Below are positions 16,629 to 20,378 of a stretch of DNA of 64,000 nt, one piece after another (positions within the stretch are counted from its first letter, which is position 1; every line of letters starts with the position of its first letter). Source of the stretch: Acidobacteriota bacterium (GTDB taxonomy: Bacteria > Acidobacteriota > Terriglobia > Bryobacterales > Bryobacteraceae); contig JAFKEE010000035.1 in NCBI GenBank assembly GCA_017307505.1, positions 62,001-126,000 on the forward strand, in the 5' to 3' direction. The position numbers were made by a program, and so were the translations under genes. Under the pieces are notes generated by a model that was given only the letters and a program-made list of their open reading frames with translations, had not been told where the DNA came from and ran no database searches.

Positions 16629-17183
16629 CTATTCGAAGACTGCACTCACCTCTGCAGAGAAGACCGACGCCAGCTTTGCACCCGGATTGCCGGTCAGCCG
16701 CGACCCAAACACACCCGCCAGCGACTGGTAATACCACCGCTGCTGCTCACGTCCGCGGCGAAACCGGGTCCACGCATGGTCGCCTCGCATTTCAATATCC
16801 TCACGGATTGATCGAATATTGTCTATTTTGTCAGCAATGGCGACCAACAGCAGATCTTCCTCGGCGGTGCTCAACAGATCGATCGTGTGCTGCTTCCGGT
16901 GCTCCCAGGAGGCAGACTTGTCCGGCTCACTCGCCCCACGGACCAGCGCCGCCACATCCCCGCCAAACAGCACCTCGATCTGCTCGTACGTAACGAAGCA
17001 ATCTTCCACCGTATCGTGCAGCATCGCCGCCACGGCGAGCTTCTCCGGACAGCCGGCATCCAGCAGCGTAGCCGCCGCGCGCATCGGGTGAATCAGATAA
17101 GGCACGTTGGTACCTTTTCGATACTGTCCGGAATGCGCCGCTGCCGCAAACTGGATGGCGAAGAAGATCAGGGGAGAATCCAT
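16629..17183 (-). CDS. HD-domain hydrolase of the RelA/SpoT-type (MESH1-like)
   Basis: A 184-residue protein made only of an HD domain. The metal ligands are visible: His32 in PYLIHPMRAA, the His56-Asp57 pair in AAMLHDTVED and Asp118 in VAIADKIDNIRS. The HDTVED and ADKIDN pattern is that of the (p)ppGpp hydrolase half of SpoT and of small alarmone hydrolases, so nucleotide pyrophosphohydrolase activity is likely though the substrate is uncertain. ATG 17183 lies inside the last codons of cdsA, so it is the third gene of the uppS-cdsA operon. Confidence 0.82.
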   Translation of the reverse strand: MDSPLIFFAIQFAAAAHSGQYRKGTNVPYLIHPMRAAATLLDAGCPEKLAVAAMLHDTVEDCFVTYEQIEVLFGGDVAALVRGASEPDKSASWEHRKQHTIDLLSTAEEDLLLVAIADKIDNIRSIREDIEMRGDHAWTRFRRGREQQRWYYQSLAGVFGSRLTGNPGAKLASVFSAEVSAVFE

Positions 17184-17959
17184 CGCTGTTGTAATAACCA
17201 GTAGACCACAGGAACCGAAAACAGACTGGAATCCACCCGGTCCAGCCAGCCGCCATGGCCAGGCAGCAGGTTGCCGCTATCCTTCACGCCCGCCCCCCGC
17301 TTGATAGCCGACTCACACAGGTCCCCCACCTGGCCGGCCACGTTCGCCGCCAGACACAAAACCAGCGCCGGCCCCAGCGCCACCTCAGGGAACTTCCAGT
17401 GCAGGAACCAGGCACCCAGCGCCATGGAGGAAACCGTCGAAGCGATGGTCCCTTCCCACGACTTGCCGGGGCTGATCGACGGCGCCAGCTTGTGCCGCCC
17501 GAAGTTCTTCCCAAAATAAAAGGCAAAGGTGTCGCCCACCCAGTTGATCGCCACGCCAAACAGCATCCACCATGGACTGCGGCCGTGCAGGAATACGGCG
17601 CATCGCCAGGCCCCGAAGATGTACAGCACACCCAGCACCGACATCGACGCCATCGGCAGCACCTGCGGAAGTGCCCGCCGCCGCATGGCCAGGACCCACG
17701 CCAGCAGCGCAAACAGCGTCAGATAGAGCGACTCGTTGTTCGGTAGCACCAGCAGCAACACCCCGGCCAGATAACCGATGGGACTGTGCCGCGGATCCGG
17801 TCCGCTGTCCGGAAAATGAGCGCCGGCGATGCCCTGATATTCGTAGTAACAGAGACACCCGACGACAGCCAGGATCCCCAGGAAGAACCAGTCAGGAGCA
17901 AATACGACAGCGTAGAAAAAGAACGGGGTAATGATCAGACCAGTGAGAAGCCGCTTCAT
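17168..17959 (-). CDS. cdsA: Phosphatidate cytidylyltransferase
   Basis: A 263-residue membrane protein with about seven hydrophobic segments. The C-terminal half carries the CDP-diglyceride synthetase signature: INWVGDTFAFYFGKNFGRHKLAPSISPGKSWEGT, and then GDLCESAIKRGAGVKDSGNLLPGHGGWLDRVDS, with the acidic and SPGKSWEG residues that bind CTP and metal. It converts phosphatidic acid and CTP to CDP-diacylglycerol at the inner membrane. ATG 17959 overlaps the stop of uppS by four bases (ATGA), so translation is coupled; the 3' end overlaps the HD gene by 16 bases. The uppS-cdsA order is the common one in bacteria. Confidence 0.92.
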   Translation of the reverse strand: MKRLLTGLIITPFFFYAVVFAPDWFFLGILAVVGCLCYYEYQGIAGAHFPDSGPDPRHSPIGYLAGVLLLVLPNNESLYLTLFALLAWVLAMRRRALPQVLPMASMSVLGVLYIFGAWRCAVFLHGRSPWWMLFGVAINWVGDTFAFYFGKNFGRHKLAPSISPGKSWEGTIASTVSSMALGAWFLHWKFPEVALGPALVLCLAANVAGQVGDLCESAIKRGAGVKDSGNLLPGHGGWLDRVDSSLFSVPVVYWLLQQRWILP

Positions 17960-18810
17960 CGAGTGGGTAAGCTGACGGCTTCCAACACAGGTTCGTCGGC
18001 AGCCGGTTGGGCCGGCGCCTGGCGAATGCCCCCGAAGCGGCGGTCGCGTTTCTGATAGGCCTTCAGGGCCTCCAGCAGCGCGATCCGATTGAAATCCGGC
18101 CAGTACGTCTCCGTAACATAGAGCTCGGCGTAGGCGATCTGCCAAAGCAGGAAGTTGGAGATCCGCATTTCGCCGGAGGTGCGGATCAACAGGTCGGGTT
18201 CGGGCTGCCCGGCCGTATACAGATGGTTGCCAAGGGAGTCCTCGTCCACCTTCAGGTCTTCCAGGCGGCCCGTCCGCCTCGCTTCGTCGATGACGCGGTT
18301 CACCGCGTCCACAATCTCGGTCCTGCCGCCGTAGTTGATCGCCAGATTGAGGATCAGACCTGTGTTGCCGGCCGTGGCCGCGATGGCGCTATCCAGCTCT
18401 TTCCGGATCTCGCTCGACAACTCGTCCAGCCGCCCAATCGCACGCAGCCGGATGTTGTTCTGCATCAGGTGCGCGACTTACTTCCTCAGGTAGTAGCGCA
18501 GCAGCCGCCACAACGTCTCCACTTCCGTGCGCGGGCGCTTCCAGTTCTCCACAGAAAACGCGTAAAGCGTCAGGCTGTGGACATTTAACTGCGCACACGT
18601 CTCCACCGTCATACGCACTGGTTCGACACCGGCTTTGTGTCCGGCGGCGCGCGGCAGGCTGCGGCTGTTGGCCCACCGGCCATTGCCGTCCATGATCACT
18701 CCGATATGTGCGGGAAGACGCGCCGGATCCAGCGACCGCGCCAATACCCATTCGGGCGAGCCCGGCTTTAGCGTCTGCAGTAGCGCCTGCATGAATAAGG
18801 ATTCCTTCAC
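17956..18810 (-). pseudogene. uppS: Isoprenyl (undecaprenyl diphosphate) synthase, interrupted by one in-frame TAA
   Basis: The frame encodes a complete cis-prenyltransferase: [16 protein letters not shown] with the catalytic Asp (about residue 41), [55 protein letters not shown] and IAYAELYVTETYWPDF. A single TAA at 18478-18480 splits it into 110 and about 174 codons in the same frame. The stop falls where E. coli UppS has Glu (LDSEVKSLHRHNVRLR against LRK-stop-VAHLMQNNIRLR), so one base changes GAA to TAA. An ATG four codons downstream could allow re-initiation, but the fragment would lack the active site. UppS makes the lipid carrier for cell wall synthesis and is normally essential. Start is GTG 18810 or, with AAGGA upstream, ATG 18792. 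Confidence 0.88.
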
Positions 18811-18977: not shown

Positions 18978-19619
18978 ATGTCCTTTTATCGCGTACTGTG
19001 CCTGATGGGCGCCGTCCTGACGGCCCATGCGGCACATTCCGCGCGAGTGGGCATCCTCGTCAATGTTCCGCCCACCACGCCCGCCCCTGTCGTCGAGGCG
19101 CTGCAATCCGAAACAGAAGACAATCTGAAGGACACCGGCCTGCAACTCATCTGGAGCTTCAGCCAGGAGGAAGCGGCTCAAGAGACCTATGATCGCGTCA
19201 TCAGCCTGCGCCTGCTCGGGCGCTGCGTACCCCTCCGGCCCGAACCCGTAAAGAACTCTCGTGTCCTGGGGTTCACCCACATCTCGGATGGAACGGTCCT
19301 GCCGTTCGTCGAGATCAGTTGCGACACGGTTCTTCGCGTCATGGGCAGCGGATCACCCCGGGTCACGCCCTATTACCCACCCAATGAGTTCGGACGAGCC
19401 CTGGGCCGCGTGCTGGTCCACGAGATGCTCCACGTGCTCACCGTCAGTTCGACTCACGAACGCGACGGCCTGACCAAACCCGCCTTCAACCGCGCCGATC
19501 TCACGCTGGGCAACCTGCGACTCACGGGCCGGGCCCTGCAACGCCTGCACCGCAGCCTGGGTCACCCGGACTTACAGGCTCAGAACGGCGGCAACCAGCG
19601 CGCCAACGCCGAGGAATGA
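18978..19619 (+). CDS. Secreted putative zinc metalloprotease (HExxH)
   Basis: A 213-residue product with CAGGAGA 7 bases before ATG 18978 and a signal peptide (about residues 1-22). The core holds VLVHEMLHVLTVSSTHERDGL: His148, Glu149, His152 and a further His160, giving HExxH-x7-H. That spacing is not the metzincin pattern, which has five residues before the third histidine. The rest (ARVGILVNVPPTTPAPVVEAL, VLGFTHISDGTVLPFVEISCDTV) resembles small acidobacterial secreted proteins of unknown role. The last 48 bases overlap, on the opposite strand, the end of the prepilin peptidase gene. Confidence 0.7.
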   Translation: MSFYRVLCLMGAVLTAHAAHSARVGILVNVPPTTPAPVVEALQSETEDNLKDTGLQLIWSFSQEEAAQETYDRVISLRLLGRCVPLRPEPVKNSRVLGFTHISDGTVLPFVEISCDTVLRVMGSGSPRVTPYYPPNEFGRALGRVLVHEMLHVLTVSSTHERDGLTKPAFNRADLTLGNLRLTGRALQRLHRSLGHPDLQAQNGGNQRANAEE

Positions 19620-20378
19620 TCCGAACGGCAGTTCGTAACTGTCTGATTTTTCGCCCTTAATCCGGATCCAAGCCAGTCCCAGCACCGTCCCCAGCAGCGA
19701 TCCGGCCATCAGCCCCACCAGCGCTGTCTCCAGCCCCAGAAACGCACCCATCATCGCCACCATCTTCACATCGCCGAAGCCCAGGCCCTCCCGGCCCCGG
19801 ATCTTCTCATAGCCCCAGCCCAGAAACCACAACCCGCCCGACAAGGCCAGCGCCGATACCGAAGAGTTCAGAAACGAAGCCAGGGCAGCGCTGCCCGCCG
19901 GGTAGTAGGCCGAGAGCATTGCCGGGATAATCCCGTCGGGCAGGGCGACCACCGGAGACATCATCACACCCAGGGCGACCCCCCACTTGGTGAACTCGTC
20001 CGGCAGAATCCGGCTCTCCAGATCCGAGAAGATCAGTTCGATGAGAATCGCAATGAACAGGCACCATTTCACCGCCGCCCAGTTGGCGCCCAGCCGGTAG
20101 ACCGCCGCCGCAAACAGGAGGCCCGTAATCAGTTCCACCATCGGATACCGGAACGAGATCGGCTCGCGGCAGCAACGCCCTTTCCCGCCCAGCACCACAA
20201 AACTCAGCACCGGGATGTTGTCGTACCACTCGATCATCTTTCCACACCGCGGACATTGCGACCGCGGCTCGTCGATCGAATAGTCGTCCGGCAGCCGGCT
20301 GATGCAGACATTCAGAAAACTGCCGATCAGCAGGCCGAACAGACCCGCCAGGGTTGTATAGAGGAATGCTTCGCTCAA
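19572..20378 (-). CDS. pilD: Type IV prepilin peptidase (A24)
   Basis: A 268-residue polytopic protein. The N-terminal part GLLIGSFLNVCISRLP leads to the cytoplasmic zinc-binding loop with CPRC (42-45) and CC (69-70); the second cysteine pair is adjacent rather than CxxC. It continues into the methyltransferase-region motif and then the two catalytic aspartates of the peptidase: Asp119 in FSDLESRILPDE and Asp203 in GFGDVKM. It cleaves type IV pilin and type II secretion pseudopilin leaders and often N-methylates them. The start is TTG 20378, overlapping the stop of the upstream glycosyltransferase (TTGA), so it is the last gene of a five-gene minus-strand run. Confidence 0.92.
   Translation of the reverse strand: MSEAFLYTTLAGLFGLLIGSFLNVCISRLPDDYSIDEPRSQCPRCGKMIEWYDNIPVLSFVVLGGKGRCCREPISFRYPMVELITGLLFAAAVYRLGANWAAVKWCLFIAILIELIFSDLESRILPDEFTKWGVALGVMMSPVVALPDGIIPAMLSAYYPAGSAALASFLNSSVSALALSGGLWFLGWGYEKIRGREGLGFGDVKMVAMMGAFLGLETALVGLMAGSLLGTVLGLAWIRIKGEKSDSYELPFGSFLGVGALVAAVLSL

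Follow-up and report, generated by a model that had tools for sequence, protein, structure and literature searches.

How can an uppS gene contain a stop codon in its middle when UppS is described, in the excerpted text of PMC6339874, as essential for bacterial cell-wall synthesis? The question is raised by the window, a stretch of 64,000 nucleotides of Acidobacteriota DNA whose initial annotation reported a single TAA within an otherwise continuous uppS frame. Translation showed that the minus-strand frame from 18810 to 17956 (uppS1, 285 codons) ends with TGA and contains one internal TAA at 18480-18478. The continuity of the frame was confirmed by matches to PF01255 on both sides of the TAA and by alignment with the nearest genome, G006, in which codons 1-284 align in one frame (protein identity 96%). 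The stop falls at position E96 of E. coli UppS, the Glu with which the annotation had aligned it. The features of the locus are as follows.

18478-18480, minus strand: in-frame TAA at a conserved Glu codon (E96 of E. coli UppS), from translation and alignment
18478-18810, minus strand: N-terminal part of uppS1 (110 codons, then the stop), containing IMDGNGRW with the catalytic Asp; listed start GTG at 18810
17956-18465, minus strand: C-terminal piece of uppS1, 169 codons from the first in-frame ATG past the stop, without IMDGNGRW
17168-17959, minus strand: intact cdsA-type gene, whose start overlaps the uppS1 stop as ATGA
16629-17183, minus strand: 184-codon gene that follows cdsA; its position is the same in a close relative, G005
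19572-20378, minus strand: upstream neighbor of uppS1, followed directly by cdsA in another relative, G018, with no uppS1 between

The ATGA overlap agrees with the description of cdsA as an intact gene in an operon with uppS. We take the 184-codon gene to be of the HD type and the gene at 19572-20378 to be prepilin-peptidase-like. Elsewhere in the window genome (G000), a second CdsA-type gene (C50:42444-43241, L130), which is also found in G006, shows 38% identity to the operonic CdsA over its C-terminal half, and its presence could soften a polar effect on the operonic cdsA. A separate observation concerns positions 1934-2272 of the window, which hold a C-terminal remnant (~110 residues) of an 882-residue gene, presumably permease-like. 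G006 carries the complete gene, whereas its remaining part found no match here.

At the window uppS we found no uninterrupted PF01255/TIGR00055 frame: the pieces of 110 and 169 codons each match part of the profile, with PF01255 scores of 94 bits ahead of the stop and 177.5 bits from the ATG past it. With the stop marked, the whole frame gave a full-length match to the operonic type of UppS (TIGR00055, PRK14830, PF01255), which uppS1 resembles in its active-site residues and its operon with cdsA and from which it differs by the one nonsense codon at E96. Across both pieces, the DNA keeps D26, N28, R30, R39, H43, S71, N74, W75, R77, E81, R194, R200, and E213 (E. coli numbering, taken from the PDB chain), which are active-site residues of UppS. 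Asp26, Asn28, Arg39, His43, Ser71, and Arg77 are among the residues named in the excerpted text of PMC6339874. The TAA parts the catalytic Asp, in the N-terminal piece, from the Arg and Glu residues of the C-terminal part. As the annotation had stated, the ATG four codons past the stop (18465) yields a fragment without the catalytic Asp, because the 169-codon piece lacks IMDGNGRW. At the upstream end, an ATG at 18792 behind AAGGA seems a likelier start than the GTG at 18810.

At the stop site, all 29 of the other operonic-type loci that were aligned encode Glu, as GAA or GAG; these loci are those extracted by profile search, a subset of the relatives' copies. Both of the nearest genomes, G005 and G006, have GAA there. 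A single G-to-T change therefore accounts for the TAA, as was originally proposed. The uppS copies of 40 relatives, among the matches listed, have no stop at this site, so the inactivating change is absent from the close relatives of the window genome (own genome plus 40 relatives, one genome per species). We also surveyed 120 genomes of the order with a completeness of at least 90%. An uppS1-type gene scored above the cut-off in 114 of them, and a stop lay inside 1 of these 114 genes, that of the window genome, among the matches listed. The invariant Glu and the solitary stop favor a consensus sequencing or assembly error, in which case uppS1 would be intact, with GAA at this codon, in the living strain. 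That the affected genome is a draft of 75 contigs and that a single base is concerned point the same way; against an error, the TAA site lies outside any homopolymer. We regard such an error as a serious possibility, if somewhat less than probable.

Selection on uppS1 bears on the age of the stop. Between the window genome and G006, uppS1 has a dS of 0.36, a dN of 0.024, and a dN/dS of 0.067, values within the range of its neighbors. The differences at the first, second, and third codon positions number 5/1/20 ahead of the stop and 7/4/39 past it, a pattern by which both sides look coding. With G005 as the outgroup, the window genome's own branch carries 6 nonsynonymous and 20 synonymous changes in uppS1, compared with 3 and 19 on the G006 branch and with 12 and 40 on the own branch of cdsA; both contrasts fall short of significance (Fisher 0.48 and 1.0, respectively). 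Past the stop we observed 5 nonsynonymous changes, whereas 47 would be expected had the whole own branch been neutral, so at most about a fifth of that branch could have been unconstrained. Relaxed constraint past the uppS1 stop was thus not detected, which fits a very recent event or an error. Because both sides still evolve as coding sequence, the stop must be either recent or false. Selection on the two sides is indistinguishable from that on a working gene, and because a real mutation and an error both predict an absence of decay, an error fits the sequence nearly as well; the lack of any decay beyond one base accordingly counts against a real, tolerated loss.

We scanned for other nonsense codons by comparing G006 frames of at least 90 codons with three contigs, C16, C24 (first 140,000 of 144,578 bases), and C50. 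We discarded matches with an identity below 65%, a dS of 0.15 or less, or a dN/dS of 0.35 or more, and thinned overlapping frames, which left 65, 56, and 20 frames, respectively: 141 gene-like frames (54,187 codons), some of which may not be genes. The uppS1 TAA was the sole stop in these frames to have highly identical sequence with a coding pattern on either side. Twelve other stops were listed, two of which (C24:8480 and C50:22536) passed the flank-identity filter; these were rejected as mid-gene nonsense, as they lie upstream of the true start, with no third-position change before them and many after. For the remaining 10, identity was weak or missing on at least one side. The stops at C16:125136, 116706, 65682, and 63940 were dismissed because they fall in leader sequences, in a stretch that aligns poorly, and in a truncated remnant; those at C16:79387, 79315, and 79279 share a single frame, whose start precedes the 184-codon gene. 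The reverse scan, for G006 stops inside frames of the window genome, flagged 8 sites. Four were discarded because their frame, which overlies an ABC ATPase, is on the wrong strand (C24:13948-14970); each of the other four involves a leading segment (51, 19, 46, and 15 codons). Two reverse-scan segments (C16:66303-66962 and 162183-162860) show some third-position bias, and we do not claim that G006 is free of nonsense codons. The absence of any other supported mid-gene nonsense codon from the 141 frames argues against an error-rich assembly, for the part that was sampled, and thus against an error at uppS1.

The constraint kept on both sides of the stop is also what readthrough of the TAA, yielding a full-length UppS1 enzyme, would predict. 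This option, raised in the initial annotation, found no support. TAA follows the last aligned codon in 27 of 121 compared genes of the window genome, so it is an ordinary terminator and has not been reassigned there, and the absence of the stop from the copies in the 40 relatives, among the matches listed, leaves no conserved recoding signal. We consider readthrough highly improbable. We give as little credence to a split enzyme, in which the 110- and 169-residue pieces would be made separately from one transcript, by re-initiation 12 bases past the stop, and would assemble into a working two-chain cis-prenyltransferase while translation stayed coupled into cdsA. The constraint on both parts and the in-frame ATG at 18465 with AGGAAG upstream would suit such an arrangement. 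However, this ATG predates the stop, as G005 and G006 carry it without one; the AGGAAG lies 15 bases ahead of the ATG, which is probably long for a ribosome-binding site; the break appears to fall inside a conserved helix region rather than a linker; and no feature specific to a split form was seen in the sequence.

A whole-genome profile search revealed a second cis-prenyltransferase gene, uppS2, at C24:68259-68873 of the window genome. It is intact, with no stop, and scores 239.5 bits against PF01255, 222.7 bits against TIGR00055 (an intact full-length frame above the cut-off of 109.55), and 333.2 bits against PRK14839, about 1 bit under the cut-off of 334. Two profile searches gave two family matches in this genome and another gave three; the third match is taken for a split match to uppS2. 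The gene follows a membrane protein and an HTH_34 winged-helix regulator and, in the window genome, stands outside the cdsA operon. It resembles the PRK14839-type second uppS of the order in its family, its conserved residues, its intactness, and this module of membrane protein, HTH_34 regulator, and uppS2. The module is conserved (L002, L120; L205-L210), and in three genomes of genus g24 it adjoins uppS1-cdsA divergently. The best named protein match of uppS2 is from a Bryobacterales MAG (64%), and a uppS2-type gene is present in 8 of 8 other genomes of the genus. In a tree of 138 of the 140 extracted proteins (L120 was dropped as a duplicate of L002, and L160 as a broken tandem copy), 28 uppS2-type proteins, including that of G018, form a clade apart from uppS1 (support 100/100).

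The dN/dS of uppS2 between the window genome and G006 is 0.017, compared with 0.067 for uppS1; uppS2 is under strong purifying selection. It keeps all of the residues listed above for uppS1 (D26, N28, R30, R39, H43, S71, N74, W75, R77, E81, R194, R200, and E213), and also A69 and L137. A69 has a role in the product length of UppS. In E. coli UppS, the substitution L137A lengthens the product from C55 to C75, according to the excerpted text of PMC7573591. The product of uppS2 may be an undecaprenyl-type carrier of suitable length, a length that sequence alone does not fix. Against the idea that uppS2 buffers the loss of uppS1, it departs from uppS1 at NYGGR, which is replaced by DYSSR, and in a shortened helix region.

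The survey of the order showed that the two types are not always found together. A uppS2-type gene is present in at least 75 of the 120 genomes (rows at 290 bits or more, tallied by eye); that uppS1 is nevertheless found in 114 indicates that it is normally worth keeping, which counts against a buffered loss. Six genomes lack an over-cut-off uppS1: G004, G018, G069, G075, G096, and G123. In G018, cdsA comes immediately after the prepilin-peptidase-like gene, within a contig of 95 kb, and the one family match, of the uppS2 type, is on another contig. In G069, the module of membrane protein, regulator, and uppS2 (the one family match) comes immediately after cdsA, whereas in three genomes of the same genus (G077, G041, and G064) uppS1 sits between cdsA and this module. 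Conversely, G042, also of that genus, keeps uppS1 and the membrane-protein/regulator pair with no uppS2 beside them, and has one family match, among the matches listed. Either copy can therefore be missing in these bacteria, with the reservation that the G018 and G069 assemblies are drafts (completeness 96% for each) and that uppS1 could lie elsewhere in unassembled DNA. The other four genomes are best explained by gaps in the assembly or by fragments and were not counted as losses: G004 lacks any PF01148 match, so its operon probably falls in such a gap; in G096, uppS1 is cut at the contig start; G123 has a weak fragment and no cdsA; and G075 has no cis-prenyltransferase match at all.

Damaged or possibly damaged copies were also seen elsewhere in the family. 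In G028, a tandem second uppS (L160, G028:C1:1288500-1292500, ~1714-2456) is broken by a frameshift near an intact uppS1, and the uppS2-type matches of G041, G043, G064, G068, and G083 show one stop inside the match.

These observations bear on two further statements of the initial annotation. Its suggestion that a dead copy is rescued by a second uppS gains support from the intact uppS2 and from G018 and G069, which appear, from their assemblies, to have only the uppS2 type. The second intact uppS that the annotation said would mark this copy as a dispensable pseudogene is present, as far as sequence can tell. Its description of uppS as normally essential is too strong here, where either copy can be missing, widely though uppS1 is retained across the order. 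Among the best literature matches we found nothing on the present case, either for a uppS pair or for a broken uppS in this bacterial group. Clostridioides difficile offers a comparison, as one of its copies (uppS1) is beside cdsA and the other (uppS2) is elsewhere. There, uppS1 is reported as essential, with a caveat about polarity, and uppS2 as non-essential by Tn-seq (excerpted text of PMC12548448); an earlier paper describes a failed inactivation of uppS2 and a growth defect upon knock-down (excerpted text of PMC4973711). As far as these excerpts go, the roles would be the reverse of those proposed for the window genome, and the presence of a paralogue is no guarantee of compensation.

A real loss is plausible given the intact second copy, which weighs against an error, and the view that uppS2 is able to compensate derives mainly from the natural absence of uppS1 in G018 and G069. 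On balance, we lean toward a recent null mutation of uppS1 that is buffered by uppS2. In this account, the housekeeping uppS1 would have been inactivated when a recent G-to-T change in the uppS-cdsA operon replaced a conserved Glu codon by TAA, the base being presumably real in the living strain. The older uppS2 would make the undecaprenyl-type carrier lipid, so that the cell tolerates the loss, and cdsA would probably still be expressed, possibly through re-initiation at the ATG at 18465, which would carry translation to the overlapping cdsA start. The case is ordinary in kind: a recent gene loss of the usual sort is the likeliest cause, and a sequencing error the next likeliest. Should the base be wrong, the lesson of the locus is that paralogues and reads ought to be checked before recoding is invoked. 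If the base is real, the window genome would be a natural knockout of the housekeeping uppS and, together with G018, G069, and G042, would suggest that two distinct cis-prenyltransferases can substitute for each other in these bacteria, which would have consequences for targeting UppS alone with drugs and for the practice of inferring essentiality from a family name.
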